From a virus, in the IMG/VR virus record IMGVR_UViG_3300031726_000433, positions 1-64,000 of that record: DNA of 64,000 nucleotides; one strand, given 5' to 3'. Of the stretch, positions 6,202 through 26,506 are shown piece after piece; the first letter of the stretch is position 1, and the number at the start of each line of letters is the position of its first letter. Both the position numbers and the translations under genes were made by a program. The notes under the pieces were generated by a model. That model saw only the letters and a list, made by a program, of their open reading frames with translations. It searched no databases and was not told where the DNA came from.

Positions 6202-6213
6202 CTTGGAGGATTG

Positions 6214-7053: not shown

Positions 7054-7312
7054 AATGTATACTGTGCTTGTAATTTGTACAAACTGTAGAAATGAGTTTG
7101 AGGCAAAATCACATAATGCAAAATTTTGTAATAAGAAATGTTTTCACGATCACTATCTTAGAAAAGCTCATTGGTCAATTGATCACAACCATAAGACAGG
7201 AAAGATAAGAGGTCTTCTTTGTTCTAGATGTAATAGAGGTTTGGGACTCTTTAAAGACGACCTCTCGAATCTGTCGAGAGCGATTGACTATTTAAAAGAA
7301 GGAGATAAGTGA
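7046..7312 (+). CDS. Short endonuclease-VII-like HNH protein
   Basis: 88 residues from ATG 7046, which overlaps the preceding stop. N-terminal zinc finger CTNCRNEF...FCNKKC, then [16 protein letters not shown] and [11 protein letters not shown], the core of the recombination endonuclease VII family (His-Me finger nucleases). T4 endonuclease VII is about 157 residues and carries a dimerisation region, absent here, so this is probably a minimal homing-type nuclease rather than the packaging resolvase. It ends KEGDK with a TGATG junction to the next gene. It closely resembles the C-terminal half of the gene at 21391. Confidence 0.78.
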
Positions 7313-8637
7313 TGTCAGAGAGAATGAAGATCTTGGTGCTTTGCGATCATCCACTAGTGCCAAGTGGAGTAGGAACTCAGGCAAAGTATTTGATAGAGGG
7401 ACTTCTTAACACTAATAAGTTTAAGTTTGTAGTTTTTGGAGGAGCTGTTAAACATCCAGATTATAAACCACAGATGATTGCTCCAGAGAAGTTCGGTGAT
7501 GGAAATTGGATGATCTATCCCGTTGACGGATATGGCGACAAGGATAAGATGAGAGCGATCCTTCAGAAGGAAAAGCCAGATGCTGTTCTTCTTTTTACTG
7601 ATCCCAGATTCTTTGTTTGGGTGTGGGAGATGGAAGACGAGATCAGATCAGTATGTCCAATCTTCTATTGGCACGTATGGGATAACGATCCTGCTCCGAG
7701 ATTCAATAGCGTGTTCTATAATTCTACTGATTTTATCTCAGCTCTGTCTCTAAAGACATATGGCCTACTTCAGAGCCTAAAGTACAAGACCTGTAACTAT
7801 ATTCCTCACGCTGTTTCACCAGAAACATTTAAACCACTGCCAGAGCTTGAATGTCAGAAGTTTAAGATGGGACATTTCGGTCCTCATTCAGATAAGAAGT
7901 TTATTGCATTCTGGAATAACAGAAATGCTAGAAGGAAGATGACTGGTGACGTAGTTGCATGTATGGCAAAGTTTGCTGACAAGGTTGGTAGGGAGAATGT
8001 CGCCCTCGCAATGCACACTTCAGTTTCAGATCCAGAAGGACAGAATGTCGTAGAAGTCGCTAGAGAATTTGATTTCGAAAAGAACTTGATTATCTCAGAA
8101 CAGAGAGTTAATCCAGAAGTTCTAAATCAATTCTACAATGCTTGTGATGTCACTATCAACATTGCTAGTAATGAAGGATTCGGCTTGGGTACTCTAGAAT
8201 CTTTAATGTCAGGTACTCCGATACTTGTCCATATGACAGGCGGGCTTCAGTTCCAAATCGGCGATTGGTGGGAGGAACTGACAGACTTCTCAGATCAGGA
8301 AAAGATGACTGAACTTGCTAAGAGAAAGTTGAAGAAGGGAACGAGTAAGTGGTGGGGTAAGCCTGTATTTTCATCATCTAGATCATGCACTGGATCTCAA
8401 CCCATCCCATACATTTATGATGATCGGGTTAATCACGATGATGTAGTTAGGTCTCTCGTTGAACTATATGATCTTGGTAGAGAAGGAAGACGGACTATCG
8501 GATCTGAAGCAAGTATGTGGGCCAGAGAAAAGTTTAATCTCAATAAAATGATAGCTGACTGGGATGCCACGCTTACGGAACAGATACTTATATCAAAGAA
8601 TAACACAGGTAAGAATTTACGCGTAGTTGGATTGTGA
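7312..8637 (+). CDS. GT4-type glycosyltransferase
   Basis: 441 residues from ATG 7312 (GGAGATAAGT upstream). N-terminus MKILVLCDHPLVPSGVGTQA is the Rossmann start with the glycine-rich acceptor loop of GT-B enzymes. The GT4 donor motif NEGFGLGTLESLMSGTPI (~residues 288-305) carries the E-x7-E pair. Transfers a sugar from a nucleotide donor, retaining, in the cytoplasm. First gene of the long glycan operon. Its C-terminal ~90 residues (WWGKPVFSSSRSCTGSQP) are less typical. Donor and acceptor unknown. Confidence 0.85.
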   Translation: MSERMKILVLCDHPLVPSGVGTQAKYLIEGLLNTNKFKFVVFGGAVKHPDYKPQMIAPEKFGDGNWMIYPVDGYGDKDKMRAILQKEKPDAVLLFTDPRFFVWVWEMEDEIRSVCPIFYWHVWDNDPAPRFNSVFYNSTDFISALSLKTYGLLQSLKYKTCNYIPHAVSPETFKPLPELECQKFKMGHFGPHSDKKFIAFWNNRNARRKMTGDVVACMAKFADKVGRENVALAMHTSVSDPEGQNVVEVAREFDFEKNLIISEQRVNPEVLNQFYNACDVTINIASNEGFGLGTLESLMSGTPILVHMTGGLQFQIGDWWEELTDFSDQEKMTELAKRKLKKGTSKWWGKPVFSSSRSCTGSQPIPYIYDDRVNHDDVVRSLVELYDLGREGRRTIGSEASMWAREKFNLNKMIADWDATLTEQILISKNNTGKNLRVVGL

Positions 8638-8643
8638 GGAAAT

Positions 8644-9585
8644 ATGCCAGGCATTGCAGTGATGGGTGGAGCAGGTTTTATCGGTTCAAATCTTGTTGAC
8701 GAGCTATTGACGCAAGGGCATGAGGTTACAGTTCTTGATAATTTCTCCGAGGGCAAGGTGGAGAATCTTGCTAGATGGAAGGGGTCTAATAGACTCGAGG
8801 TTGTAAGAGGAGATATTAGAGACTTCAACACTGTTAAGAGAGTCCTAGCAAATAAGGAATGGTGCTTCCATCTCGCTGCGATGAGTAGGATTCAGCCGTC
8901 AATCACAGATCCTCTACTTGCATTTAACCAGAACTACATCGGTACTGCGAATGTATTAGAGGCAGCAAGACAAGGTGGAGTTAAGAGAGTCGTTTACTCT
9001 GCATCTTCATCTGCGTATGGGTTGAAGAACCCTATCCCAAACAGGGAAGACATGCCAACAGATTGTCTCAATGCGTATTCTCTATCAAAGAAGGGCGGAG
9101 AAGAACTTTGTGAAATGTACAACAAACTTTATGGCGTTTCCACAATTGCTCTTCGATACTTCAATGTGTACGGTCCGAGACACCAAGAAGAGGGTTCGTA
9201 TGCAACTGTAATTGCCATCTTCAGAAGGCAGAAGAAAGAAGGAAAGAAGATGACGATTGTCGGTGACGGAGAGCAGCGACGTGACTTCACATTTGTTGGA
9301 GACGTAGTTAGAGCAAACATGCTTGCAGCTATGAATAGAGAAGCAACCGGTATATACAACATCGGTACGGGCAATAACTACAGTATGAATGAACTTGCTT
9401 CTAAACTCGGTGGTGAATTCGAATTTGTTCCAGCTAGACCAGCTGAAGCAAGAGTTACATTAGCAGATGCAGGTAAGGCAAGAGAAGTTCTTGGATGGAC
9501 TCCACTTGTATCTCTAGATCAAGGTCTTAAGGTTCTAGATGAGTACGAGAAGAGAAACACCAAGGGACTTATCATAAGCATTTAA
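8644..9585 (+). CDS. NAD-dependent sugar epimerase/dehydratase (GalE-like SDR)
   Basis: 313 residues. GGAGFIGSN near the N-terminus binds NAD; SASSSAYG (~118) supplies the catalytic Ser/Thr, and YSLSK (~143) the YxxxK pair; RYFNVYGPR (~175) and RRDFTFVGDV (~222) are typical of the UDP-glucose 4-epimerase group of extended SDRs. Length is normal. Acts on a nucleotide-activated sugar; exact substrate not readable. Six bases after the preceding GT4 gene, GAGGAAAT ribosome site. Confidence 0.88.
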   Translation: MPGIAVMGGAGFIGSNLVDELLTQGHEVTVLDNFSEGKVENLARWKGSNRLEVVRGDIRDFNTVKRVLANKEWCFHLAAMSRIQPSITDPLLAFNQNYIGTANVLEAARQGGVKRVVYSASSSAYGLKNPIPNREDMPTDCLNAYSLSKKGGEELCEMYNKLYGVSTIALRYFNVYGPRHQEEGSYATVIAIFRRQKKEGKKMTIVGDGEQRRDFTFVGDVVRANMLAAMNREATGIYNIGTGNNYSMNELASKLGGEFEFVPARPAEARVTLADAGKAREVLGWTPLVSLDQGLKVLDEYEKRNTKGLIISI

Positions 9586-9596
9586 TTGGAGAGATA

Positions 9597-12500
9597 ATGA
9601 AAAAGCTTCTTTTCTGGGGTCCTGTATTAACTGCATCCGGATATGGTGAACACGCTCGTCAGTTATTGGCAGCCGTTCTTAATTCAGGAGAATTCGATGT
9701 CAGTGTTTGCTCTATAAAATGGGGTCAAACACCTTTTATTAATAGCAATGATGAATTCATCTCAAGGATCCATCGTCTAATTTCTAAATTTGAAGCAGAG
9801 AAGAATGAAGGAACAAGATATGATGTGTCAATACAGGTTTCTATACCAAATGAGTTCCAGAAACTCGCTGCAGTAAACATCGGTGTAACTGCAGGTATTG
9901 AAGTTGACAGAGTATCTCCTGAGTGGATTAAGAAGGCAAACGAAAATGTCGATCTGATAATTGTCCCCTCAAAGCATTCTGCAACTTCATATGCCAATGT
10001 CGTATACAAGGACAAGGATGGCGGATCAGAACTCGTATTAGAGAAGCCAGTGTTCATAGTTCCAGAATCTTTTGATTCAACTGTGTTTAATTTAGAAAGG
10101 ACAGAAGAGAAGCCAATCATCGAACTTGATACTGACTTCAACTTCCTCTCAGTTGGTCTTGGATTTGACAAGGCTCCAGGTGAAGATAGAAAAGATCTCA
10201 GCGGTCTTGTAAAGAATTTTTGTGAGACGTTTGCTGGTAATAAGAATGTTGGTCTTGTTCTTAAAGCAAATCTTGTCAATCATTCTTTGATGGATTTTGA
10301 GACGATCAAGACTAGAATAGATCAGATTAAGAAGATGACTGAGTGCGGTGAATTTCCCAAGATTCATCTTGTTCATGGAAGACTTTCAAAGAAGGAGCTT
10401 GCTTCTCTTTATAAGCACCCAAAGATCAAAGCTTATGTTACAACTACTCACGGTGAAGGTTACGGTCTCCCTATCATCGAAGCAGCTGCTTGTGGTCTTC
10501 CTGTTATTGCTACAAATTGGTCAGGGCATGTAGATTTTCTTAGTAACAAGGAAGGCAAGAGAAGATTCATTCCTCTTGAATTTGATCTCAAGGAAATTCC
10601 AGATAGTTCTGTTTGGCCCGGTGTAATTGAGAAGGGAACAAGGTGGGCTTATGTAAAGCCAGACGATCTCAAGATGAAGTTGAAGAAGGTTCAACTAAGT
10701 CCAGAGAAGCCAACTGAATGGGCAAGAGAACTTGCTGTTTATCTAGCCGAAGAATACAGCGAAAAAACTCTGGGAACTAAATTCGTAGAGTCTCTGAAAC
10801 ATTTCTTGGCAGAAGTGTCTGAAGCGTTACCACCTCACGCAAATCAACAGGTGTCGCCAGCTGAAGCCAAGATCAAGCTCAGGGAACAACTTGGTGTGCC
10901 AGAAGATTCCAAGATTCTTCTATATACAATGCCGATGTCTGCAGGTGATGTGTTCATCTCAACTGCCATCATAGATTCTCTCAAGAAGAAGTTCCCAGAA
11001 CATCTTATTCTTTTCGGAACAGATCAGAAGTATTCAAGTATTCTAAAGGATAATCCAAACATCTTCAGAACAATTCAGTTCGAACAGTGGATGATGAACG
11101 TTCCTTTCTGTGAAGGAATCTTTGATGAAGTATACACTCCAAATCTAGCTGTGCAGTTGAACACTTCAAATTGGGTTCATGGTGGAAAGGGTAGACTACT
11201 TGGTCATGAATTCGCTGCTCAATGTGGTGTAGAGTTCGGTGAATACTTTATCAAGCTTGAAGAACTCCAAGGACTTCCAGAAAAGTTTATTGTTCTCCAC
11301 ACTGGTTCTGGTAAGGGACAGTGGGAAGCAAGAAACTACAGACACTGGAAGAAGGTCGTCCACAATCTAAAGAAGAATTTCCAAGACGTAGATATTCAAA
11401 TTGTCCAAGTTGGACTCGATGAAGATCCTTTGATCGAGGGATGCGTCGATCTTAGGGGCCGTACCAATTACAACCAACTTGCTTATGTGATCTCGAAGGC
11501 GTTGTGCCTTGTCGGAATCGATTCTGTAACCATGCACATGGCCGCAGCTCTACATGTTCGTCATGTGTCATTGTTTGGGAGCTCGTATTCTTCATCGACA
11601 GGTCCAGCGTGGACAATGGGATACAACAGTTCGTTTAGAGTTCTTCTAGACGCAAAGAATAGGTGTAACGGTGGAAAAGCTTGCTACAAGTATCAATGTT
11701 CTGTAGATAGAGATAATCCTTGTATCAATGAAATTAGCCCAAGACAAGTTGTAGCAAGCGTTCTATCTTTCACTACAGTTAACAAGGGTGATATCGCAAA
11801 TCCATTTGAAGTTATGACAAAGGAATGGGATGATTGTACTCCGAAGATCGCTGGTTACACTCACGTACTTGATCCTGAACTTCATGGATTTCCGTACATC
11901 GAATCTATTAAGTCAATGTTAGGATTCTGTGATGAAGTAATTGTCGTTGATGGTGGTTCAACTGACGGGTCTCTTGAAAAGATTAAGGCAATTGGAGATG
12001 ATAGAATAAAGATCTTTGATAGAAAGTGGGATTGGACTGAACCCGGAATGGACGGAATGCAGAAAGCTTACGGCCGCGCAATGGTCTCTGTTGGTCCTGA
12101 TGATTTCTTGTGGCAGCAAGATGCAGATGAAGTTGTTCACGAGAGAGATTATCAGAAGATTAAGGACCTTGCAGAAAAGTTCCCGAGTGGAGTTGATTTG
12201 ATTCACCTTCCAGTTGTAGAGTTGTGGGGAGCTCCGGACAGAGTTAGAACAGACAGACACTCATGGAAGTGGAGAATGTCTAGAAACAACTTTAGAGTTA
12301 CTCATGGAATTAATAAGGATGCAAGATTGTTCGACGAAAAGACCGGAAGAACATTTGCCAAGAAGGGAATGTCTGATGGTTGCGAGTATGTAGACATTAT
12401 GACCGGTGAACATCTTCCTCACAAGGGATTCTACACTCAGGAGCTTGAGACAGTTAGACGTAACAATCCTAAGAATTATGGTCAGACGATGAACAAGATC

Positions 12501-12887
12501 TTCTCTGAACTTCCAAGTGTATTTCATTACTCGTGGGCAGATCTTCCAAGAAAGATCAGAAACTTCAAGTCATTCTGGAATAAGTGTTGGGCCAATTTGT
12601 ACAATGAAGAAACTCCAACTGATAGATTTCCCAATGTACTCTCAGAGGAAGATGTATTAAAATATGCTGAAATTCTGAGAGTCAGAGGTGGAGAACACTC
12701 AGAAGCTGAGACATTTAAACTTGAAGGCGCAGGTCCTTCAATAATGTCTGAGTGGTTCGAGAGGGTAAAAAATGCCGATAGATATCTTCATGACAACGAA
12801 GGACAGACCAACTCTACTGAGGAGGTCACTCAACTCTCTGCTGGAGTGCACGCCGAGGAATCTGTTCAGACTAACACTAGTCCATGA
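9597..12887 (+). CDS. Three-domain glycosyltransferase (GT4-GT9-GT2 fusion)
   Basis: 1096 residues with three enzyme domains. Residues ~1-400 are a GT4 GT-B domain (LTASGYGEHARQ; HGEGYGLPIIEAAACG ~285 with E-x7-E). Residues ~420-750 are GT9, the heptosyltransferase family (MPMSAGDVFISTAIIDSLKK; HTGSGKGQW ~567; GIDSVTMHMAAAL ~640). Residues ~760-1040 are GT2 (VIVVDGGSTDGSLEKI ~781; WQQDADEVVHERD ~839 with DxD). GT9 members transfer ADP-heptose, which fits the hldE/hldD genes downstream. A single chain adding three successive residues is the natural inference. The last ~40 residues are disordered-looking and encoded where the next gene already runs in another frame. Confidence 0.9.
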   Translation: MKKLLFWGPVLTASGYGEHARQLLAAVLNSGEFDVSVCSIKWGQTPFINSNDEFISRIHRLISKFEAEKNEGTRYDVSIQVSIPNEFQKLAAVNIGVTAGIEVDRVSPEWIKKANENVDLIIVPSKHSATSYANVVYKDKDGGSELVLEKPVFIVPESFDSTVFNLERTEEKPIIELDTDFNFLSVGLGFDKAPGEDRKDLSGLVKNFCETFAGNKNVGLVLKANLVNHSLMDFETIKTRIDQIKKMTECGEFPKIHLVHGRLSKKELASLYKHPKIKAYVTTTHGEGYGLPIIEAAACGLPVIATNWSGHVDFLSNKEGKRRFIPLEFDLKEIPDSSVWPGVIEKGTRWAYVKPDDLKMKLKKVQLSPEKPTEWARELAVYLAEEYSEKTLGTKFVESLKHFLAEVSEALPPHANQQVSPAEAKIKLREQLGVPEDSKILLYTMPMSAGDVFISTAIIDSLKKKFPEHLILFGTDQKYSSILKDNPNIFRTIQFEQWMMNVPFCEGIFDEVYTPNLAVQLNTSNWVHGGKGRLLGHEFAAQCGVEFGEYFIKLEELQGLPEKFIVLHTGSGKGQWEARNYRHWKKVVHNLKKNFQDVDIQIVQVGLDEDPLIEGCVDLRGRTNYNQLAYVISKALCLVGIDSVTMHMAAALHVRHVSLFGSSYSSSTGPAWTMGYNSSFRVLLDAKNRCNGGKACYKYQCSVDRDNPCINEISPRQVVASVLSFTTVNKGDIANPFEVMTKEWDDCTPKIAGYTHVLDPELHGFPYIESIKSMLGFCDEVIVVDGGSTDGSLEKIKAIGDDRIKIFDRKWDWTEPGMDGMQKAYGRAMVSVGPDDFLWQQDADEVVHERDYQKIKDLAEKFPSGVDLIHLPVVELWGAPDRVRTDRHSWKWRMSRNNFRVTHGINKDARLFDEKTGRTFAKKGMSDGCEYVDIMTGEHLPHKGFYTQELETVRRNNPKNYGQTMNKIFSELPSVFHYSWADLPRKIRNFKSFWNKCWANLYNEETPTDRFPNVLSEEDVLKYAEILRVRGGEHSEAETFKLEGAGPSIMSEWFERVKNADRYLHDNEGQTNSTEEVTQLSAGVHAEESVQTNTSP

Positions 12888-13575
12888 CACGTCAGATCAG
12901 ACAACTCATGACGTAATCCATGAAACATTTTACGGAAGATGGGACCACGTAATAGCTCACTCTGAAAATGAAGGTCTTGGTCCGTCAATTAATCAAGCTC
13001 TATCTCATATTTCAGCTCTGAAATCTTGGGATAACAATCCTTCTCCACTCACTCTTTATGTTCAAGATGATGTTCAGTTTTCTCCCGGATGGTTAGAAAA
13101 ACTTTCACAAAAGTTTCTTCAATTAGAGAAACCTCTCAATCTTGGTTTCGCTTCTGGTGTTGAGTGTGTCGAACATCCAATCAAGAAAGATCTTGGTAAT
13201 GGACTTGTTCTTAAAGACTGGATTCGCGCAACATGCATGCTTGCTCGACATGATTACTGGATGAGCATGTGGCCTATTTCTAGAATTGATCCTGAGACTG
13301 GTAGAGAACGCGGGAAGCCAAATGACGGTATGGGAAGTTCTGTAGATTGGTGGTTCATTCGAAATCATCCAAAGTCAGTTTGTCGATCAGGTAGAACTAA
13401 TCTTGTTATTCCTGGTCTTCTTCAACACGTCGGTTATAGAGAATCAACTTGGCTTAAGAGAGAACTTCCAGAATCTGAAATTGATAAAGCTCTTATGACA
13501 CATGGTTGCACATGTAGTTACGATGAAAGTGAAGAAATGACACGCCACTCTAATCTTTGTAAGACAAACAAATGA
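12772..13575 (+). CDS. GT2-type glycosyltransferase
   Basis: 267 residues. MPIDIFMTTKDRPTLLRRSL is the canonical GT-A start, and LYVQDDVQFSPGW (~95) holds the DxD-type metal site. WWFIRN (~188) and LLQHVGY follow as in phage and capsule GT2 enzymes. GAGAGGG before ATG 12772 supports this start even though it lies 116 bases inside the preceding gene, an unusually long overlap. A later ATG at 12790 would cut the first strand. C-terminal Cys/His pairs (HGCTCSYD, SNLCK) might bind metal. Ends in an ATGA overlap with the next gene. Confidence 0.85.
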   Translation: MPIDIFMTTKDRPTLLRRSLNSLLECTPRNLFRLTLVHDTSDQTTHDVIHETFYGRWDHVIAHSENEGLGPSINQALSHISALKSWDNNPSPLTLYVQDDVQFSPGWLEKLSQKFLQLEKPLNLGFASGVECVEHPIKKDLGNGLVLKDWIRATCMLARHDYWMSMWPISRIDPETGRERGKPNDGMGSSVDWWFIRNHPKSVCRSGRTNLVIPGLLQHVGYRESTWLKRELPESEIDKALMTHGCTCSYDESEEMTRHSNLCKTNK

Positions 13576-14612
13576 GAGACATTGTTCTTATTTCATACAC
13601 TACTCTTGACGCATCGGGTGGAGTTCCTCGATGGAATAGAGATTTCGTACAAGGTTTTACTGGAACAAGACACTACTCATGGGACGACGTTCAATGGAAA
13701 GGATCGTGGCAAGATCCGAATGTTTCAGAGTGGGATCGTGCAAGTTGTCTCGGTGCTTGGCTTCATGGAAGAAGATTGGTTAACAAGGAAGATATCATTA
13801 TCACAGACGGTTTCTGGGGAGAATGGTTAAGTTCAGCCGGCTACAATGTAATTTCTGTCGCTCATGGAATTTGGAGTCATTTAACGAAAGAAGATGTTTT
13901 AGCCGGAAAGCAACCAGAGTTTCCTGCTCACCATGCAGTTCAAAAGAAACATAGAAAAGATCATCTCACTAGAGGCGGAAAGATTGTAGCCGTTTCAGAT
14001 TTCATTGCAGATCAAATGAAGGAGCAGTGGGGATTTGATTCTACAGTAATTAACAATGCAATAGATCTAGAAAGATTTAAGCCACCACTCAGCCGAACAC
14101 CTCTAGAGAGGCCTTTGGTAATACATGGCGTAACCACTCATAACAAAGGCTTTGATCACATAGCGGCCTTCCAGCATGCTGTAGATGGTATTGCTGATGT
14201 GATGTTGCTTGATGACGCAGCCAAGAAGTACAAGATGGACAAGTATGATATTCTTGGTCATGCATCTCTTGTAGTTCAACCTTCTGCATATGAAGGCAAT
14301 TCATACTTTGTTTTAGAGACTCTTGCTTGTGATGTTCCAATTGTAGCATACAATGTTGGACTTTTATATTCTATTTCTAAGATCTGTAAATGTGATGGAG
14401 ATGAATGTTGTTGTATTGGTTCTATCATCGATAGGAAATTTAGATCTCCAGAAGAAACAGCGAAGGTCGGAAAGTTTATTCTGGAGTCAGTTCTAAGAGA
14501 TAGAACTCCATATGAGCCAAGGAAAGCAGCTTCTCACTTCTCTATAGGGAGATTTCATAGTGAATGGAAAAGCTATTTAGAAAACTATGAGCGTAATATT
14601 AAGAGTCGATGA
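13572..14612 (+). CDS. GT4-type glycosyltransferase
   Basis: 346 residues. N-terminus VLISYTTLDASGGVPRWNRD, AHGIW (~100) and INNAIDLERFKP (~155) mark a GT-B fold with the acceptor and linker features; VVQPSAYEGNSYFVLETLAC (~235-254) is the GT4 donor motif with E-x7-E. A Cys-rich insertion (CKCDGDECCCIG) near residue 275 is unusual. Overlaps both neighbours (4 and 26 bases). Confidence 0.82.
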   Translation: MRDIVLISYTTLDASGGVPRWNRDFVQGFTGTRHYSWDDVQWKGSWQDPNVSEWDRASCLGAWLHGRRLVNKEDIIITDGFWGEWLSSAGYNVISVAHGIWSHLTKEDVLAGKQPEFPAHHAVQKKHRKDHLTRGGKIVAVSDFIADQMKEQWGFDSTVINNAIDLERFKPPLSRTPLERPLVIHGVTTHNKGFDHIAAFQHAVDGIADVMLLDDAAKKYKMDKYDILGHASLVVQPSAYEGNSYFVLETLACDVPIVAYNVGLLYSISKICKCDGDECCCIGSIIDRKFRSPEETAKVGKFILESVLRDRTPYEPRKAASHFSIGRFHSEWKSYLENYERNIKSR

Positions 14613-18591: not shown

Positions 18592-19538
18592 CAGGCGGAC
18601 TTGGATTTATTGGAAGCAATCTTGTAAAGAAGCTATCTGACTTTGGTGAAAAGGTTTGTGTCGTTGATTATAGAGATGACGCGTCTAAATTGCTGAATAT
18701 CGCAAACTGCAAAGGCGTAGTAGATGTTATAAGTCCGCACACGTTCAGAGGATCCTTGGACAGATTTCTTTCATATAATGAAGTGCAAGGTGTATATCAT
18801 CAAGGTGCGTGTACAGATACGACAGTGGTGAATGTAGAGCGTATGCTTGGTGAGAATTTGGATTTTTCTAAAGAAGTTATTATTGGTTGCCTAAAGCATG
18901 GAAAGAAAATTGTGTATGCCTCATCTGCTGCAGTGTATGGTAATAATTGGAATAGTGAAGATACGATAAATGAAAATCCTCTAAACATCTACGGCGTGTC
19001 AAAGCTTCTTGTCGATAACTTCGTAAGACACATCATATTTGGAACAAATCCAGAGACTACACTTGTTGGGTTGAGATACTTCAATGTGTATGGGAATAAT
19101 GAAAACCACAAAGGCAAAATGGCCTCAATGATTCACCAGATTACTGAGAAAGTTAAGCAAGACAAACCTCCAGTTTTGTTTAAGCATGGTGAGCAGGAGA
19201 GAGATTTTATTCATGTAAGTGATGTCGTTAATCTTAATCTTCATTTTATGGATTCTGATCCTCGACAAGATATCTTCAATGCCGGGACCGGACAGACTAG
19301 AACATTTCTACAGATAGCTACGTACATTTCATATGTTATGGAAAAAACTCTCGGAAAGAAACATATGAATCCAGAGTACGTTGATATGCCGGAAGATGTG
19401 AGAAAATTTTATCAATTCAACACAAAAGCAGATCTAAGGAAGTTGAGAGCTGCTGGTTATAAAAAGGATTTTATGCCAGTGACAGAAGGAATTAGAAAGA
19501 CGATCGCTCCAGATTGGAAGGGAGATTTCAGTGTCTAA
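18579..19538 (+). CDS. hldD: ADP-glyceromanno-heptose 6-epimerase-like (HldD-type) SDR
   Basis: 319 residues from GTG 18579 with AAGGAG nearby. TGGLGFIGSN binds NADP; YHQGACTDTT (~72-81) closely resembles the HldD signature around HEGAC; SSAAVYGNN (~114) and YGVSK (~136) give the catalytic residues; FNAGTGQTRTF (~230) also matches HldD. HldD converts ADP-D-glycero- to ADP-L-glycero-manno-heptose, the last activation step for LPS core heptose. Other SDR epimerases share the fold, but these motifs with the hldE halves nearby make this reading good. Start overlaps the GT9 gene by 13 bases. Confidence 0.8.
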   Translation: MYIVTGGLGFIGSNLVKKLSDFGEKVCVVDYRDDASKLLNIANCKGVVDVISPHTFRGSLDRFLSYNEVQGVYHQGACTDTTVVNVERMLGENLDFSKEVIIGCLKHGKKIVYASSAAVYGNNWNSEDTINENPLNIYGVSKLLVDNFVRHIIFGTNPETTLVGLRYFNVYGNNENHKGKMASMIHQITEKVKQDKPPVLFKHGEQERDFIHVSDVVNLNLHFMDSDPRQDIFNAGTGQTRTFLQIATYISYVMEKTLGKKHMNPEYVDMPEDVRKFYQFNTKADLRKLRAAGYKKDFMPVTEGIRKTIAPDWKGDFSV

Positions 19539-19902
19539 AATATCGAAAGTAGAAGTCAATCACCAACAAATACACACAAAGGGTTGGGGATTTGAAGTGT
19601 GGATTGAAAATCTTCCAGAGTATTGCGGAAAGCTTCTTTGGTTCAAGTCAGGTAAGAAATGTTCAATGCACTTTCACCTGAATAAAAAAGAAACGATGTA
19701 TCTTCAGAGTGGACGCATCGACATAGACCTTATCGATCCAGAGAATGGAGAAAGATATACCGTCAGTTTATTTGAGGGCGATTCTCTCTTGATTCCTCCT
19801 GGTCAAATGCACCAAATTATAGCTCTCAAGGAAAGTCAACTCTTTGAATTTAGCACCACTCATGAAGATTCAGACTCTTATAGAATGCAAAAAGGTGACT
19901 GA
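19531..19902 (+). CDS. Cupin-domain protein (sugar isomerase/epimerase type)
   Basis: 123 residues from GTG 19531 (GGGAG upstream). CSMHFHLNKKETMYLQSG (~48-65) is cupin motif 1 with His/His/Glu ligands, and LLIPPGQMHQI (~91-101) motif 2. The single small cupin resembles type II mannose-6-phosphate isomerase C-termini and sugar cupins. It likely isomerises or epimerises a nucleotide or phosphate sugar. Overlaps hldD by 8 bases and meets the next gene at TGATG. Confidence 0.72.
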   Translation: MSKISKVEVNHQQIHTKGWGFEVWIENLPEYCGKLLWFKSGKKCSMHFHLNKKETMYLQSGRIDIDLIDPENGERYTVSLFEGDSLLIPPGQMHQIIALKESQLFEFSTTHEDSDSYRMQKGD

Positions 19903-20792
19903 TGAGATGGAATATCATTGGAGCATTTATTCGCAACAAGCCATTTGGCACAGAGATAGCATTTCAGAAGGGACTCGAAAGGATCGGAGAGACAGTAACT
20001 GTAATTGATCCAAGTTATCCTTATCAGAAGTTTGATGAGTCAGCAGACGTTACTGTATTATTCAAGTGGATTGATCCAGGCGAATATAGAAATACCCTGA
20101 CGAAGATCGGTGGCAAGAAGATCGTATACCAACCAGATGATCTAAGATTTCCTCATATCAAAAATATGATGCATGAGATGAGAAACATATGTGATCATGC
20201 GTTCACATTTGATAATGATGGAGCAGATCTAGCAATTCAATATGGTTATAAGTCAGCTCAAAGACTTCTGTTAACAGCAGACAATACTTTATACAGACGA
20301 ATTCCAAACATGCAGAAAGATATCGACGTTTGTTTTATTGGAAGCATGTCTAACGGAGATAATCATAAAAGTAGAATGAAGATGCTGAATATTGTTTCTC
20401 AAATGAAGGGCGTAAGACTTGCTGCAATGAATGAACTATTTGACATTGGAATGCTTAATGGAATTTACAATCGCTCAAAGATTGTCCTGAATCATGCAAC
20501 AGATGTGGGTCAACCTTTCGGGCATGGATATGGATATCAGTGTCGACATTTCGAAGCTGGACTTGCTGGAGCTTTTGTGTTGTCGAATGAGATTGATAAT
20601 GAAAGAGAATTAAAGAATATCATGACATTCCACGATGAAGAAAGTTTGGTTGGTGAAATCAGAACGTGGCTTGATTCTTCAATCGGTGAAAGACAGATGG
20701 TGGCAGATAGTTTGTACGAAGAGCTTAACAAGTCTCATCTTCCAGAACATAGAGCACAAGAAATGTTGGAATTCGTCAAGAGGATTTCGTGA
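19902..20792 (+). CDS. CgeB-like glycosyltransferase
   Basis: 296 residues. DVCFIGSMSNGDNHKSR (~141-157), SKIVLNHATDVGQPFG (~191) and CRHFEAGLAGAFVLSNEI (~214) form the C-terminal donor half typical of the CgeB-like group; the first ~135 residues are the N-terminal Rossmann half (YQPDDLRFPH). It is a relative of, but not a copy of, the enzyme at 15228. TGATG junction upstream, GTGA overlap downstream. Confidence 0.7.
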   Translation: MRWNIIGAFIRNKPFGTEIAFQKGLERIGETVTVIDPSYPYQKFDESADVTVLFKWIDPGEYRNTLTKIGGKKIVYQPDDLRFPHIKNMMHEMRNICDHAFTFDNDGADLAIQYGYKSAQRLLLTADNTLYRRIPNMQKDIDVCFIGSMSNGDNHKSRMKMLNIVSQMKGVRLAAMNELFDIGMLNGIYNRSKIVLNHATDVGQPFGHGYGYQCRHFEAGLAGAFVLSNEIDNERELKNIMTFHDEESLVGEIRTWLDSSIGERQMVADSLYEELNKSHLPEHRAQEMLEFVKRIS

Positions 20793-21403
20793 AGCTAAAT
20801 CTCGGTTGTGGCACAGATGTGAAACAAGGATATGTCAATGTGGACTTTAGAGATCTGCCAGGAGTAATGAAAGTAGATCTCTCAAAGTTTCCGTGGCCTT
20901 TCGATGATGAATCTGCAGATGAAGTAATGATGCTCGATTTTCTCGAACACTTCCCATATAGAGATACCGAAAAGATTATTTTTGAAGCATATAGAATTCT
21001 AAAGAAGGATGGCAAGATTATTCTTCAGGTTCCAGATCTAGATCATTGCTCAAGAGCGGCTTCGTTTATTCCACCGTTTCTTTGTAATAACTGTGGGTGG
21101 GAATTTCCAGTAAATGATGGTAGAGCTAAATTTTATCTAAAGGCAAATTTCGTTTGTAACAAATGCGGTAGATCTTGGAGATTAATTGCAGGCTCTGCAG
21201 TGGCTAGATTATATGGTGGTCAAGACTATCATGGCAACTGGCACTTCACAGCGTTTTCTAAATTGATTTTAGAAGACATGTTAAGCATGTCTGGATTCGG
21301 ATGCATAGAAGAAATACAAAAAAATGAAAACGGTGAAACGTTTTATGCAAATTGGAATTTAAAACTCGTAGCTAGAAAACTAAATATCATATGGGAAGAA
21401 TAG
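20789..21403 (+). CDS. SAM methyltransferase with zinc-ribbon insertion
   Basis: 204 residues from GTG 20789. KLNLGCGTDVKQGYVNVD (~2-19) is motif I, VMMLDFLEHFPY (~45) motif IV and ILKKDGKIILQVPDLD (~71) motif VI. Between ~95 and 130 two CxxC pairs (CNNCGW and CNKCGR) form a predicted zinc ribbon inserted in the methyltransferase core, not usual for sugar methyltransferases. The C-terminal WHFTAFS segment resumes the fold. Its end is overlapped by the endonuclease gene at 21391. Confidence 0.8.
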   Translation: MKLNLGCGTDVKQGYVNVDFRDLPGVMKVDLSKFPWPFDDESADEVMMLDFLEHFPYRDTEKIIFEAYRILKKDGKIILQVPDLDHCSRAASFIPPFLCNNCGWEFPVNDGRAKFYLKANFVCNKCGRSWRLIAGSAVARLYGGQDYHGNWHFTAFSKLILEDMLSMSGFGCIEEIQKNENGETFYANWNLKLVARKLNIIWEE

Positions 21404-21888
21404 GACCATATGAAAAACAATGTAATGGCTGTAAGGTTAATTTTTTAGCTAGAATGAAAAATCAAAAATTTTGTAAACCTGAATGTGCCAGAAAAAAGAC
21501 ATTCGCCTCATTGAGAAATTGTATATATTGTAAAAAAGAATTTTTAGGATATAGAGTCGACAAGAAAGTTTGCGGAGATGAATTGTGTCTAAAATCACTG
21601 TCCAAATCAAATTCATTATCTTGGAGAATAAAGTCTCTTGGTGTGTCAGTTAGTCAATTTGAAGAACTTCGTAGATTACAAAATGATCGTTGCGTAATTT
21701 GCGATCTTCCAGAGACATTAATTCACAAGGGCAAATTACAAAATTTGTCAATAGATCATTGTCACGAGACTGGTAAAATAAGAGGATTACTTTGTAAGCT
21801 GTGTAATATGGGTCTCGGTCTTTTTAAAGACGACAAGAAAAGATTAAAAAAAGCTATTCAATATTTAGAATTGTCAGAGGGTGAATGA
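21391..21888 (+). CDS. Endonuclease-VII-like HNH homing nuclease
   Basis: 165 residues. Two N-terminal zinc fingers (CNGCKVNF...FCKPEC; CIYCKKEF...CGDELC), then CVICDLPE and [29 protein letters not shown]. The C-terminal core belongs to the recombination endonuclease VII family and shares the stretch GKIRGLLC...C..GLGLFKDD with the protein at 7046. Presence between two sugar genes, overlapping both, marks it as a free-standing homing endonuclease that has been accommodated without breaking the operon. Confidence 0.82.
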   Translation: MGRIGPYEKQCNGCKVNFLARMKNQKFCKPECARKKTFASLRNCIYCKKEFLGYRVDKKVCGDELCLKSLSKSNSLSWRIKSLGVSVSQFEELRRLQNDRCVICDLPETLIHKGKLQNLSIDHCHETGKIRGLLCKLCNMGLGLFKDDKKRLKKAIQYLELSEGE

Positions 21889-22838
21889 TGAATGACCTTA
21901 GCGGAAAGAATATTCTCGTCACTGGAGCTGGTGGTTTCATCGGCTCTGCAATGGTTCGAACACTCGTGGGATTTAAGGCGAATGTTGTCAGTCTCGTGAG
22001 ATCGCATAGTGATACGACTCAGCTGGAAGGTTCTACTGTTCACGTAGGAGACGTTGCAGATTACAAATTCATGTGTGACATTATCTCAATGCATGAGATA
22101 GAATATATTTTTCATTTTGCAGCAAATGCGATTGTCAGAATTGCCGCAAAAGATCCAATGAATTGTTACCAGTCTAATGTAATTGGTACTGTATCTATTC
22201 TAGAGGCTGCACGCAATGTTGGGAAGTGTAAGAAGATTTTAGTATCTTCTAGTGATAAGGCATATGGTGATCATGAGAAGCTTCCATACACAGAAGATAT
22301 GGCTCTTCAGCCAAAAAATACTTACGACACTTCAAAGGCATGTGCAGATCTAGTAGCTAGATCCTATGCGCATAATTATAATATGCCTATAATTGTGACG
22401 AGGTGCAGTAACGTGTATGGTCCTGGTGATCCAAATATGTCCAGGATCATTCCAAACTCAATCAATAGAGCTCTTCAAGGAAATTCTCCAGAACTCTATT
22501 CAGATGTAAGTCAAATGGAAAGGGAATTTATCTACATAGATGATGTTATAGACGCATGTCTATTGCTTATCTTTTCAGATAACAATACAAATGGAGAAGC
22601 TTTTAACATTGGCGGGTCTGGTCCTGAATCCGTAGAGAATGTTGTAGATAAAATTTTGTCATTGATGAATTCTCCATTGAAGACAACAATAAAGGATCGT
22701 GACCCAACATTTAAGGAAATTAAGAGACAGTACATAGATGCATCGAAACTCAATAAGTTTACAGGTTGGGTGCCAAAAGTTAATCTAAATCTCGGCTTAT
22801 TAAGAACTATAAGTTGGTATAAAGAGAGATTCTCATGA
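21885..22838 (+). CDS. NAD-dependent sugar 4,6-dehydratase-like SDR
   Basis: 317 residues. VTGAGGFIGSA (~11-21) NAD site, SSSDKAYGDH (~121) and YDTSK (~146) catalytic motifs, SNVYGPGDPNMSR (~170) and REFIYIDDV (~210). SSDKAYG is characteristic of CDP-glucose and related 4,6-dehydratases. Product would be a 4-keto-6-deoxy sugar for deoxysugar synthesis. Exact nucleotide not readable. ATGATG start overlaps the endonuclease stop. Confidence 0.8.
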   Translation: MMNDLSGKNILVTGAGGFIGSAMVRTLVGFKANVVSLVRSHSDTTQLEGSTVHVGDVADYKFMCDIISMHEIEYIFHFAANAIVRIAAKDPMNCYQSNVIGTVSILEAARNVGKCKKILVSSSDKAYGDHEKLPYTEDMALQPKNTYDTSKACADLVARSYAHNYNMPIIVTRCSNVYGPGDPNMSRIIPNSINRALQGNSPELYSDVSQMEREFIYIDDVIDACLLLIFSDNNTNGEAFNIGGSGPESVENVVDKILSLMNSPLKTTIKDRDPTFKEIKRQYIDASKLNKFTGWVPKVNLNLGLLRTISWYKERFS

Positions 22839-23854
22839 AGATAGCTTTTGTCGGAATCAAAAGAAAGTATCAGGAGATACCCGAAGATTATCGCGATTCA
22901 TTCAATCAATATCATCTTGAGTTGCCGTATTACTACGCTAAGTATGGGAATAATGATGTTGTTATTTCAACTCTTGATTATGAAGATGATGGAGTTCAAT
23001 TTGAGGCCGGCAGCTTGAAATGTATGCTTGAAAAATCAGTACAACTTAGCAAGTTCGATGTAGTAGTACACTGGAGAAGATGGTTCCCAGAATTTTATGA
23101 TCCAGGCGCGATAAATGTCATCAACTGTCAGGATCATTCATTTAGCCAGGAATGGACGTCTTCAGCTAGCATTGCATTTCGTTCCGGCCAACTCTATGGA
23201 ATACTTTGTTTCAAGTCATGGCATAAAAGAAATCTGTTGATCGAGTGTCCATGGTTAACTGAAGACAGAGCCCTGGAGGGAGTAACTCTGGGCGTAGACA
23301 CAGACATTTACAAACCATCAGTAAATAAAGATCCATATCAAATGTTGTGGTCATCTGATCCTGGTAGAGGAATGTCTGGAGCAATTGCTCTCGTGATGAA
23401 GTTATTTCAGATAGATAAGAGATTTAGACTTCATCTTTGTTATCCAGATTATGTTAAACAACCTCAAAAGATTCAACATCCAGCATTGGTTTGGCATGGA
23501 TCAATTTCGAATGGTCCAAAGTTATGGAATATGTTTAATGACACAGGAATTCTTCCATACACTTCAACATTCAAGGAACCATCATCAAGAGCCCACAGAC
23601 AAGCTCAGGCTGCTGGAAGTTTAGTTCTCTATCCTCCGAATATGGGAACTCCATCTGAACTAATTGAAAATAATATAACTGGGGTAGTTGATAACCAATC
23701 CTTGTGGCCAGATCGCATAATTGATCTTATAAAAAGTGGTAAGTGGTTAGAGATTGGGCAGAATGCCAGAAAATTTGCAGAGTCACAGAGTTGGAAAGTA
23801 CAAGCTGAGAATTTCAATAACTTGATCATCGGAATTTTAAAAGAGAGGGAGTAA
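22835..23854 (+). CDS. GT4-type glycosyltransferase
   Basis: 339 residues. C-terminal half shows LWSSDPGRGMSGAIALV (~170), ALVWHGSI (~214) and the donor region EPSSRAHRQAQAAGSLVLYP (~250) with PSELIENNITGVV. The E-x7-E is modified (EPSSRAHRQAQ), so retention of activity is not certain. N-terminal half is a divergent Rossmann domain with HWRRWFPEFY. ATGA overlap with the dehydratase. Confidence 0.75.
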   Translation: MKIAFVGIKRKYQEIPEDYRDSFNQYHLELPYYYAKYGNNDVVISTLDYEDDGVQFEAGSLKCMLEKSVQLSKFDVVVHWRRWFPEFYDPGAINVINCQDHSFSQEWTSSASIAFRSGQLYGILCFKSWHKRNLLIECPWLTEDRALEGVTLGVDTDIYKPSVNKDPYQMLWSSDPGRGMSGAIALVMKLFQIDKRFRLHLCYPDYVKQPQKIQHPALVWHGSISNGPKLWNMFNDTGILPYTSTFKEPSSRAHRQAQAAGSLVLYPPNMGTPSELIENNITGVVDNQSLWPDRIIDLIKSGKWLEIGQNARKFAESQSWKVQAENFNNLIIGILKERE

Positions 23855-23857
23855 ACA

Positions 23858-24775
23858 ATGTTGGACATTAATGCAACAGACTTTTTGAAGAGCTTCAATA
23901 TGAAGAATGCAACAGTCGGTGTTGTCGGACATGGCTTTGTTGGAAAGGCGGTCGACGAGTTCTTCAAGGGAAAGTGCAATGTCTTGGTCCACGATAAGGC
24001 TAAACCAGAATTGAATTCTCTAAAGGAAGTAGTTTCTGGTGCAGAAGTAATCTTTATTTGCGTTCCTACTCCAATGAGAAAGGATGGATCTTGCTTTACA
24101 GGATTCATTGAAGAAGTTTTGACGAATGTCAGAAATACTGCGAGAGAGCTCAATAGAAATCTTGATTCATTTGTCACTGTTGTCAAGAGTACAGTTTATC
24201 CTGGATTCGTCGAAGACATGCAGAACAAGCTTCTTCCACTTAGAATTACATTCTCTCCTGAATTCCTCACTGAGGCAAACAGTGTTAATGACTTCAAGGA
24301 AGTTAATAGAATTATTGTCGGTGGTGATGAAGATGATGCTCTCGTTGTTTGTAAGTACTTTGCTGAAGCAGATCCTGATAGAGTTGAAGATGGACGTAGA
24401 ATCATTCTTCACGCAGATTCTACGACAGCAGAGATGGTTAAGCTTTATGCGAATGGCATTCTAACTGCGAAGGTAATCTTCTCAAACGAAGTCTATCTAA
24501 TGTGTCAGAAGTTAGGCATCAGCTTTGAGGACGTTCGTATGATGGCCGTTCTAGATCACAGAATTGGTGCTGGTCACACTCTTGTCCCTGGTCCTGATGG
24601 TCAATTGGGATATGGTGGACATTGCTTCCCGAAGGACGTGAACAACCTCAGAGCCTTTGCTAAGGAACTTGGTACTGGAGAGAAGATGTTCACTGCGATG
24701 ATAGAAAGAAATGAAGAAATTAGAGAGAAGAAGGATTGGCTTGAAATGAAGGATCGCGCCGTAACTGATAACTAA
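23858..24775 (+). CDS. Nucleotide-sugar dehydrogenase (UDP-glucose 6-dehydrogenase family), short form
   Basis: 305 residues. VGVVGHGFVGKAV (~20-32) NAD site, FICVPTPM (~67), VKSTVYPGF (~109), SPEFLTEANSVNDF (~135) and GYGGHCFPKD (~251) with the catalytic Cys. Oxidises a nucleotide hexose to the uronic acid (two NAD steps). The usual C-terminal substrate-binding Rossmann domain (~120 residues) is missing, since the protein ends shortly after the catalytic Cys helix. GGGAG ribosome site. It may be a natural short subtype found in phages, or may have lost one step. Confidence 0.82.
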   Translation: MLDINATDFLKSFNMKNATVGVVGHGFVGKAVDEFFKGKCNVLVHDKAKPELNSLKEVVSGAEVIFICVPTPMRKDGSCFTGFIEEVLTNVRNTARELNRNLDSFVTVVKSTVYPGFVEDMQNKLLPLRITFSPEFLTEANSVNDFKEVNRIIVGGDEDDALVVCKYFAEADPDRVEDGRRIILHADSTTAEMVKLYANGILTAKVIFSNEVYLMCQKLGISFEDVRMMAVLDHRIGAGHTLVPGPDGQLGYGGHCFPKDVNNLRAFAKELGTGEKMFTAMIERNEEIREKKDWLEMKDRAVTDN

Positions 24776-24776
24776 A

Positions 24777-25094
24777 ATGAGAAGATGGGTGTTCGATTTA
24801 GACGGGACGATATGTACTCAGGAAAAAATGGGTACATATCAAGATGCTTTACCAATAGAAAAGATTGTAGAAAAAATCAGGGTTCTTTGGTGTCTTGGCG
24901 ATTACATCATTATTTTTACAGCAAGAGGAATGAATACTTTTAGTGGCAACATTCTGGCGATTGAAAGAAATATGAGACCCATCACTGAAAAATGGTTAAG
25001 AGATCATGATGTTCCATATCATGAACTTATTTTTGGAAAGCCCGCTGCTGATGTTTATGTAGATGATAAGGGATGTAAGCCTCATGAAATTTGA
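24777..25094 (+). CDS. HAD-superfamily sugar phosphatase
   Basis: 105 residues. FDLDGTIC (~5-12) is HAD motif I, IIIFTARGMNTF (~47) motif II, and GKPAADVYVDDKG (~85) motifs III/IV. Small capless HADs of this type occur in capsule and LPS loci. By context it could provide the heptose-1,7-bisphosphate phosphatase step (GmhB, usually ~180 residues), but the sequence does not prove this. Overlaps the next gene's start. Confidence 0.7.
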   Translation: MRRWVFDLDGTICTQEKMGTYQDALPIEKIVEKIRVLWCLGDYIIIFTARGMNTFSGNILAIERNMRPITEKWLRDHDVPYHELIFGKPAADVYVDDKGCKPHEI

Positions 25095-25587
25095 TCCTGA
25101 AGTTTTGGAAAGCGAATCAATGGAAGACATGTGCTCTTGGATAAGAGAGACTGGATTTCAACATTACGGGTCAAATGGATATAGCAGAATAGTTTTTACG
25201 AATGGTTGCTTTGATATTCTTCACGAGGGTCATCTTAAGCTTCTTAGGGAGTGTAAGAAGCTAGCTGGTCCTCGTGGAGCAGTTGTAGTTGGCGTGAACT
25301 CAGACGCGTCGATAAAGAGAATTAAGGGTGACAAGAGACCAATCAACAATGAGAAATCAAGATGCATGCTTCTCATAAGTCTTAAGTTTGTAGATCATGT
25401 TACAACATTTGATGAAGATACCCCTGAAAATCTCATTACGACCTTGAAACCAGATGTCATTGTTAAGGGTGGAGATTATAAACCAGAAGATGTCGTCGGG
25501 AATAAAGTAGCTCCAGTTATTATAGTTCCAATTGTAGAGGGAGTTTCTACAACTGAATTCATTAGAAAGATAAAAGAAAATGAGTGA
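25084..25587 (+). CDS. hldE: Heptose-1-phosphate adenylyltransferase-like (HldE C-domain type)
   Basis: 167 residues from ATG 25084. FTNGCFDILHEGHLKLL (~39-55) carries the HxGH nucleotidyltransferase motif, GVNSDASIKRIKGDKRPI (~70-87) the RfaE-type segment, and VVKGGDYKPEDVVG and GVSTTEFI the C-terminal signature of HldE/RfaE. It forms ADP-heptose from heptose-1-phosphate and ATP. In most bacteria this domain is fused after the kinase; here it is separate and precedes it. Eleven-base overlap with the HAD gene. Confidence 0.88.
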   Translation: MKFDPEVLESESMEDMCSWIRETGFQHYGSNGYSRIVFTNGCFDILHEGHLKLLRECKKLAGPRGAVVVGVNSDASIKRIKGDKRPINNEKSRCMLLISLKFVDHVTTFDEDTPENLITTLKPDVIVKGGDYKPEDVVGNKVAPVIIVPIVEGVSTTEFIRKIKENE

Positions 25588-26506
25588 AGACAGAAAACTA
25601 AGAGTTCTTGTTGTGGGAGACATAATGATAGATCGTTATGTCTTTGTCTCTTCTGAGAGGAATGCAGCTGAAGCTCCAATCCCTGTTTTTGATGAGCTAA
25701 AAGAAGAGAAGAGACTTGGAGGAGCGGCCAATACAGCTCACAATCTGAAAGTTATTGGTGGAGATGAAATAGAAGTTGATCTAGCTGGAATTGTCGACAG
25801 TGTAGATAGAACTCTAATTCAGAGACTAGGCATAGGAACTGAATTTTGCACAGGATATGAGACTATGATGAAGACGAGATACGTGTCTTCGATAGATCAG
25901 AAATATCTCTTCAGAGCAGATAACATGAAGAAATTTCCGTCCTATTCAATTGCACAATTCAAAAAGAATGTAAATTATTTGTTCTTTGATATGACAAATC
26001 CGACCAATGATTCTCCTGAAATGTACGACGCCATCATATTCTCAGATTATGACAAGGGAACGATAGATAGTGACACTGTGAATATGTTCAAGAACAATTC
26101 AAGACTATTCGTAATTGATTCAAAGAAAGTTGATTTGTCTATCTACGAAGGAATGAATGTTCTAAAGATAAACGAAGGTGAATATTCTATTCAGGTATCA
26201 AGAGGTCCATACACGAATGTAGAAAAACTTTTTGATTTTGTCATTGTTACTCATGGCTCGAAGGGTTCGGAGCTAAGGCAGTGTGAGAAGGTAAAGAGTA
26301 ATGACACTAGGTACATGATTCACTCCGAAACCTTTCCAGTGGATCCAGTGGCCATTGGAGATGTGACTGGGTGTGGAGACACACACACGGCAGCTCTAAC
26401 TTTCTCACTCTTAAAGAATGGTGATATTAGAAACGCTGTAAAGTTTGCAAATGCATGTGCTAGAAGTGTTGTCCAGAAGTTTGGAACAAGCGTAGTGGAA
26501 AAATAG
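25580..26506 (+). CDS. hldE: Heptose-7-phosphate kinase-like (HldE N-domain type, PfkB family)
   Basis: 308 residues. VVGDIMIDRYVF (~10-21), RLGGAANTAHNL (~45-56) and DVTGCGDTHTAAL (~253-265, Asp base and anion hole) are PfkB/ribokinase signatures as arranged in HldE kinase. It phosphorylates heptose-7-phosphate at C1. It overlaps the adenylyltransferase gene by 8 bases: a split HldE in reversed order. The last gene of the operon. The sedoheptulose-7-phosphate isomerase GmhA is not in the window. Confidence 0.85.
   Translation: MSEDRKLRVLVVGDIMIDRYVFVSSERNAAEAPIPVFDELKEEKRLGGAANTAHNLKVIGGDEIEVDLAGIVDSVDRTLIQRLGIGTEFCTGYETMMKTRYVSSIDQKYLFRADNMKKFPSYSIAQFKKNVNYLFFDMTNPTNDSPEMYDAIIFSDYDKGTIDSDTVNMFKNNSRLFVIDSKKVDLSIYEGMNVLKINEGEYSIQVSRGPYTNVEKLFDFVIVTHGSKGSELRQCEKVKSNDTRYMIHSETFPVDPVAIGDVTGCGDTHTAALTFSLLKNGDIRNAVKFANACARSVVQKFGTSVVEK

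Follow-up and report, generated by a model that had tools for sequence, protein, structure and literature searches.

The window examined here, the first 64 kb (64,000 nucleotides) of the 98,721-base virus record IMGVR_UViG_3300031726_000433, belongs by the gene content of the record to a phage of the large contractile-tailed type. Terminase, portal and sheath-like genes were recognized by eye in the remainder of the record, the relatives of the product of 30720-32558 are baseplate wedge proteins, and ten tRNA/tmRNA genes are present. The phage collection searched held no near DNA relative of the window. An uninterrupted run of plus strand genes, most of which overlap their neighbors by a few bases, spans 7309 to 26506, and it was here that an earlier reading of the letters alone (the sequence-only reading) had placed a tight operon for the synthesis of ADP-heptose and the assembly of a glycan. 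The operon and all of the genes named in it were confirmed, mostly with overlapping start and stop codons. Judged from sequence comparisons, the run is a real cassette of phage glycan genes, kept among relatives, and a heptose pathway is predicted from it in which the probable new element is a cupin in the place of the isomerase GmhA.

By sequence, genes of this run belong to the HldD, HldE and GT9 families. The predicted epimerase exceeded the curated, heptose-specific NCBIfam cutoff for HldD (TIGR02197, 301.6 vs. 274.6 bits), is 39% identical to E. coli HldD and has three HldD structures as its top PDB matches; its YGVSK and QGACTDTT motifs align with YGYSK and EGACSSTT of E. coli. HldE is represented by two separate genes, as had been proposed. 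The product of the adenylyltransferase gene (HldE-C) scored 164.2 bits with TIGR02199 (cutoff 181.5) vs. 45-55 bits for rival families, glycerol-3-phosphate cytidylyltransferase being at 45, and it holds the HxGH and KGGDYKPE motifs and is 47% identical to the C-terminal half of E. coli HldE. The kinase (HldE-N) reached 156.8 bits with TIGR02198 (cutoff 345), with ribokinase at 38, and its sole PDB match is a heptose-7-phosphate kinase. The catalytic motifs of HldD and HldE are conserved and align with those of E. coli. The possibility raised at the outset, that these proteins would score better with non-heptose families, was checked with profiles, and the heptose models came out far ahead. 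When viral contigs were searched for HldD by itself, the strict patterns used gave no hits.

Four of the five pathway steps are covered by obvious genes, namely HldE-N, a HAD phosphatase, HldE-C and HldD. For the HAD protein the best profile was TIGR01689 (EcbF/BcbF; 77.8 bits, below the cutoff of 162), with no match to E. coli GmhB, and it is a likely GmhB substitute. A counterpart with 41% identity in phage P-SSM2 is called "phosphoheptose isomerase" in GenBank and PHROGs. That the HAD protein could itself be the missing isomerase, as this name implies, was rejected, as its profile matches are HAD phosphatases.

The remaining step is that of GmhA, which the sequence-only reading had rightly found to be missing: there is no SIS-type GmhA in the window, nor a SIS_2/SIS-type GmhA match in the whole 98.7-kb record. 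Its further claim that the host or a distant phage gene must supply GmhA is probably wrong, because a cupin, encoded in the operon between HldD and the next glycosyltransferase, occupies the GmhA operon position and fusion slot at other loci. The HxH, E and H metal ligands of the cupin are invariant in 166-168 of 168 family sequences, and its predicted structure is a double-stranded beta-helix (predicted local distance difference test score 89.5), a fold that differs from SIS. D-lyxose isomerase and phosphomannose isomerase are among its fold and profile relatives. There is a precedent in glucose-6-phosphate isomerase, which has the SIS fold in most organisms but is a cupin in certain archaea. 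A fold search was not accepted as proof that the cupin is an isomerase, because the scores of oxalate decarboxylases were higher.

Viral loci were chosen in three ways, by HldE-C alone (80 loci), by GmhA and by the cupin (80 loci); the viral records and metagenome-assembled genomes used are incomplete. Both HldE functions were present at 76 of the 80 loci selected by HldE-C, and of these 63 carried the cupin only, one GmhA only, 12 neither and none both. The seven GmhA-selected loci with both HldE functions all lacked the cupin, and both functions were found at 58 of the 80 cupin-selected loci. Clusters at 70% HldE-C identity gave 20 with the cupin only, 8 with GmhA only, 6 with neither and none with both (p=1.7e-4; L037 and L214 may be one contig counted twice, and counting them once gives p=4e-4 by hand). 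The cupin gene overlaps or abuts a gene of the HldE/HAD module, with median gaps of -12 and -34 bp between stop-to-stop frames, and is on the strand of the module in 63/65 and 61/61 cases.

Among 40 HldE-C loci of Patescibacteria, 11 had the kinase, eight of them with GmhA, three with the cupin and none with both, and a separate cellular scan added a fourth cupin-type operon (L212). The GmhA-type operons of this group run GmhA-HldEN-GmhB-HldEC. HldE-N is fused to GmhA in L398 and to the cupin in L410, L415 and L212, with a GmhB=HldE-C fusion also in L212 and L415. No GmhA was found in the four cupin-type Patescibacteria genomes, which gave either nothing or weak SIS matches in open reading frames of ~600-640 amino acids that are GlmS-like by length. 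The GmhA-type genomes checked had GmhA at 183-197 bits and no closely related cupin (>80 bits), save for a separate one in G326.

It could be argued that GmhA comes from the host and that the cupin acts otherwise, e.g., by isomerizing or epimerizing a nucleotide sugar made further on, in the manner of the FdtA, WxcM or WbuC cupins of O-antigen clusters. Cupins of similar size with other sugar roles exist, the WbuC cupin model matches 23 of 24 family members (with the window member well under the cutoff), there are standalone cupin homologues, and the cupin is kept in sister cassettes without HldD. Such a role is nevertheless unlikely, as it leaves unexplained the lack of GmhA in the four bacterial genomes whose HldE operons are of the cupin type, the occurrence of cupin=HldE-N in place of GmhA=HldE-N, and the mutual exclusion seen in phages. 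The cupin takes the place of GmhA in operons, in gene fusions and in the gene content of genomes, and this, together with the exclusion, argues for a non-orthologous sedoheptulose-7-phosphate isomerase. Quite probably it represents an unrecognized family of GmhA-replacing isomerases, present in hundreds of phages, marine cyanophages included, and as an isomerase-kinase fusion in some Patescibacteria, which would make the phage pathway complete. A literature search pairing cupins with ADP-heptose or phosphoheptose isomerase found nothing, and two papers name a sedoheptulose 7-phosphate isomerase and a cupin a single time each. Several of the cellular loci L175-L211 hold standalone cupins without nearby heptose genes, one of which (L185, Patescibacteria) adjoins GroES/GroEL-like genes. 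Bacterial and archaeal metagenome-assembled genomes (L199, L184, L189, L202, L213) carry a phage-like HldE-HAD-cupin set, and some of these may be mis-binned phage contigs.

Table 1. Genes of the cassette and its boundaries (SDR, short-chain dehydrogenase/reductase; SAM, S-adenosylmethionine; ORF, open reading frame; aa, amino acids).
Feature	Position	Strand	Basis
PD-(D/E)XK nuclease, marks the left edge of the conserved slot	6211..7053	+	PF12705 50 bits
HNH/endonuclease VII-like ORF, paralogue of 21391-21888	6998..7312	+	61% identity over 49 aa
Core glycosyltransferase 1, GT4 type	7309..8637	+	PF00534; conserved in 63 relatives
SDR 1, NDP-sugar epimerase/dehydratase	8644..9585	+	PF16363/PF01370; no NCBIfam equivalog cutoff reached
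1096-aa GT4-GT9-GT2 fusion; GT4 part is core glycosyltransferase 2	9597..12887	+	Pfam domains
GT2 glycosyltransferase	12772..13575	+	PF00535 37.6 bits
GT4 glycosyltransferase	13572..14612	+	PF13439 30 bits
DUF2334 polysaccharide-deacetylase-like protein	14587..15231	+	PF10096 36.6 bits
Glycosyltransferase (Glyco_trans_1_2)	15228..16259	+	PF13524 38.4 bits
SAM methyltransferase	16260..16991	+	PF13489/PF08241
220-aa protein	16988..17650	+	No match in Pfam or PHROG
GT9 (heptosyltransferase-family) enzyme, probable non-ATG start	17647..18591	+	PF01075 41.1 bits; frame open to 17647
HldD, ADP-glyceromanno-heptose 6-epimerase (predicted)	18579..19538	+	TIGR02197 301.6 bits; PDB 1eq2
123-aa cupin, proposed GmhA substitute	19531..19902	+	P-SSM2 cupin 51% identity; metal ligands; Patescibacteria HldE-N fusions
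Glycosyltransferase (Glyco_trans_1_2)	19902..20792	+	PF13524 49.1 bits
SAM methyltransferase	20789..21403	+	PF08241 31.3 bits
HNH/endonuclease VII-like insert, probably mobile, not pathway	21391..21888	+	Resembles 6998-7312
SDR 3, dTDP-glucose-4,6-dehydratase-like	21885..22838	+	TIGR01181 187.6 bits, cutoff 365 not reached
Probable glycosyltransferase	22835..23854	+	No Pfam match; kept in colinear cassettes
Short UDP-glucose/GDP-mannose dehydrogenase-like, without C-terminal domain	23858..24775	+	PF03721 and PF00984 only
HAD phosphatase, EcbF/BcbF type, proposed GmhB substitute	24777..25094	+	TIGR01689 77.8 bits, cutoff 162
HldE-C, heptose-1-phosphate adenylyltransferase (predicted)	25063..25587	+	TIGR02199 164 bits; 47% to E. 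coli
HldE-N, heptose-7-phosphate kinase (PfkB; predicted)	25580..26506	+	TIGR02198 157 bits; PDB 4e84 E=2e-19
Right boundary gene of slot, upstream of baseplate genes	27323..27997	+	No match in Pfam; judged sigma-like by eye alone

The glycosyltransferases provide the second part of the cassette. Seven of the eight genes counted in the sequence-only reading have Pfam support and the eighth (22835-23854) has none. Both of the proposed GT9 domains lie above the PF01075 gathering cutoff of 22, with 43.7 bits for the domain in the 1096-residue fusion and 41.1 bits for the enzyme called at 17692-18591, which probably has the non-ATG start near 17647 at which it had earlier been placed. The WaaC/WaaF motif D(S/T)..H is conserved in both units, and their closest solved relatives are WaaF and one unnamed GT9. 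A role of the TibC/AAH type, in which the GT9 enzymes would add heptose to a Ser/Thr-repeat protein, was considered and stays a guess, with no TibC match. In Microcystis phage Mel-JY01 a GT9 is found elsewhere, inside a 1234-aa open frame. The short dehydrogenase lacks the C-terminal domain of its family and is constant in the cassettes that cover that gene. The HNH-type gene sits inside the operon, and in L003 its relative separates HldE-C from HldE-N, a placement expected of a mobile element.

The setting of the cassette was surveyed at 63 loci, which were scanned with the first glycosyltransferase. A PD-(D/E)XK nuclease lies at most 1.3 kb upstream of it in 53 relatives, with seven more cut off, the GT4 of the fusion follows it in 62, and the 27323 gene is found downstream of the two core enzymes in 56, usually 190-320 bp past the second. 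The ancestral slot thus appears to hold two glycosyltransferases, and in most relatives these are its only content, near baseplate genes. Intermediates (L297, L300) have an added SDR and dehydrogenase. The second core GT4, a separate gene in the minimal relatives, is fused to GT9 and GT2 in the expanded clade, and in the clade of the window the fusion is followed by over 10 kb of further genes. Ten related contigs share this expanded cassette in largely the same gene order (G085, G086, G087, G089, G090 and G092; partial in L003, L095, L001 and L002). Wherever a cassette extends over these genes, the HldE pair, GT9 and the dehydrogenase are always there, and the cupin was found in all such cassettes by direct search, G089 included. 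Each of seven expanded-cassette contigs has two GT9 domains and none was found in the eleven minimal-slot relatives searched, so that GT9 tracks the expanded cassette, a point on which the sequence-only reading is supported. It is very improbable that all of this is laterally acquired filler or non-functional cargo, even with cyanophage lipopolysaccharide (LPS) genes having been doubted in print as "stuffer DNA" (PMC3037559), for open frames, motifs and colinear order are kept across ten strongly diverged contigs and unrelated phages hold the same gene set.

The identity of the sugar deserves separate consideration. The window, L003, G089 and G090 encode HldD or an SDR that resembles it. The HldE/HldD-like enzymes might yield an ADP-sugar other than ADP-heptose, given that the kinase and the HAD protein are divergent and that four sister cassettes have swapped HldD for other genes, which means that the exact sugar may vary. 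For the window this seems rather improbable, with an HldD above the heptose-specific cutoff, HldD proteins as its nearest solved relatives, and heptose families far ahead for the kinase and adenylyltransferase. Transaldolases of the TalC type can produce sedoheptulose-7-phosphate, the precursor of the ADP-heptose pathway, and their presence in sister cassettes fits the heptose theme without proving it. The set of AraD-like, RpiB, second kinase and TalC genes was seen at the HldD position in L357:11552-14235 and also in L359, L366, L095, L026 and L156. The L026 contig carries a second HldE-C and a divergent cupin as well, perhaps a separate ADP-sugar pathway.

It is probable, on the strength of these sequence relationships, that the cassette joins a self-contained ADP-heptose pathway to glycosyltransferases that use ADP-heptose. 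We infer the enzyme activities, and the isomerase assignment with them, as follows. The cupin, not GmhA, would convert host sedoheptulose-7-phosphate to D-glycero-D-manno-heptose-7-phosphate, from which HldE-N would form the 1,7-bisphosphate. After removal of the 7-phosphate by the HAD protein or by host GmhB, HldE-C would produce ADP-D,D-heptose and HldD would convert it to ADP-L,D-heptose. The two GT9 units would then place heptose onto a glycan that soluble glycosyltransferases assemble in the cytoplasm. Further sugars would come from the products of the SDR and dehydrogenase genes, and the deacetylase and methyltransferases would trim the glycan.

Several observations weigh against this pathway. 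The HldE halves and the HAD protein score under the NCBIfam cutoffs, and the former are therefore predicted to be HldE-like in function and are not strict HldE equivalogs; the HAD protein is not a GmhB orthologue and is absent from some sister cassettes. In G085, G086, G092 and L095 it is HldD that is replaced, by an AraD-like protein, RpiB, another kinase resembling HldE-N and a transaldolase of the TalC type. The cupin fold is unspecific, its top structural matches being oxalate decarboxylase and quercetinase. Two cupin-selected viral loci carry a SIS protein besides the cupin, and the HldE pair is lacking in 22 of the 80, some of which are cut off. Standalone homologues in Binatota, Planctomycetota and Patescibacteria lie away from HldE, so that the family may act on several substrates. 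The similarity to GT9 is weak and does not reveal which donor is used.

As to that acceptor, no convincing transmembrane segment was detected in the cassette proteins, and no flippase, polymerase or ligase was recognized among them. The earlier suggestion of a capsule-like glycan consequently lost ground, as without a clear transmembrane protein, flippase or ligase there is no support for an entire capsule or O-antigen system. The lack of a transmembrane protein, together with a slot beside baseplate genes that has a near-constant core of two glycosyltransferases, suggests cytoplasmic glycosylation of a phage protein. A phage structural protein is slightly favored over host LPS, as a guess with somewhat less than an even chance of being right. 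The remodeling of host LPS against the adsorption of competing phages (superinfection exclusion) is the more doubtful of the two: LPS heptosyltransferases are GT9 enzymes and superinfection exclusion was proposed for similar clusters (PMC7824862), yet the cassette has no flippase, ligase or membrane glycosyltransferase, and the slot beside the baseplate, with two core enzymes near-constant in 63 relatives, suggests a role in the particle. These arguments are not decisive, because inner-core LPS is also made by soluble cytoplasmic enzymes. One locus (L082:7632-13784) encodes a 2050-aa Ser/Thr/Asn/Gly-rich repeat protein with no Pfam match, a possible target of glycosylation, followed by a GT2-like and a methyltransferase-like gene.

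Beyond the operon, a tmRNA gene was found at 1044-1415 with an Rfam score of 114 bits. The tag peptide predicted for it, VNDNVEVPAWMISANAAALQAAA, is long, and tRNA genes come after the tmRNA gene. Two Methyltransf_24 proteins are encoded near the tRNA genes (412-1050 and 3819-4406).

Prochlorococcus phage P-SSM2 (PSSM2_309-313) has homologues of HldE-C, HldE-N, HAD, the cupin and an HldD-type epimerase, with identities to the window of 51% for the cupin, 41% for HAD, 38% for the adenylyltransferase, 32% for the epimerase and 27% for the kinase. It differs in that the set is at another position in the genome and no GT4-GT9-GT2 fusion was found. Four clusters common to P-SSM2, S-SM2 and S-SSM7, T4-GCs 304, 305, 307 and 308, were left undecided as to functionality in 2010 and regarded as possible "stuffer DNA" (PMC3037559); in P-SSM2 they correspond to HldE-C, the kinase, the cupin and the epimerase. 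No earlier reading of this set as a complete pathway was found in the available literature. A function can now be proposed for a marine cyanophage gene set held since 2010 to be possible filler, and misleading database names, "phosphoheptose isomerase" for the HAD protein and, in GenBank, "cysteine dioxygenase" for the cupin, can be corrected. If the proposal is true, the first step of ADP-heptose synthesis would gain a new enzyme family, and pathway surveys based on GmhA would overlook organisms of this kind.

Jumbo cyanophages have clusters for the modification of capsular polysaccharide in which epimerases, cupin "sugar isomerases", PfkB kinases, HIGH nucleotidyltransferases and glycosyltransferases occur together; that paper favors superinfection exclusion for the sugar clusters and leaves heptose unmentioned, and in the passages found the cupin is given no pathway step (PMC7824862). 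With the GmhA-HldE-GmhB-HldD pathway of E. coli the window shares the HldE activities and HldD, as predicted, and it differs in having HldE as two genes, a cupin for GmhA and an EcbF/BcbF-type HAD for GmhB. Phosphomannose and D-lyxose isomerases, which are aldose-ketose isomerases of the cupin type, appear to resemble the cupin in fold, in the HxH..E..H metal site and in the chemistry proposed for it, and by sequence the window cupin forms a family separate from theirs.

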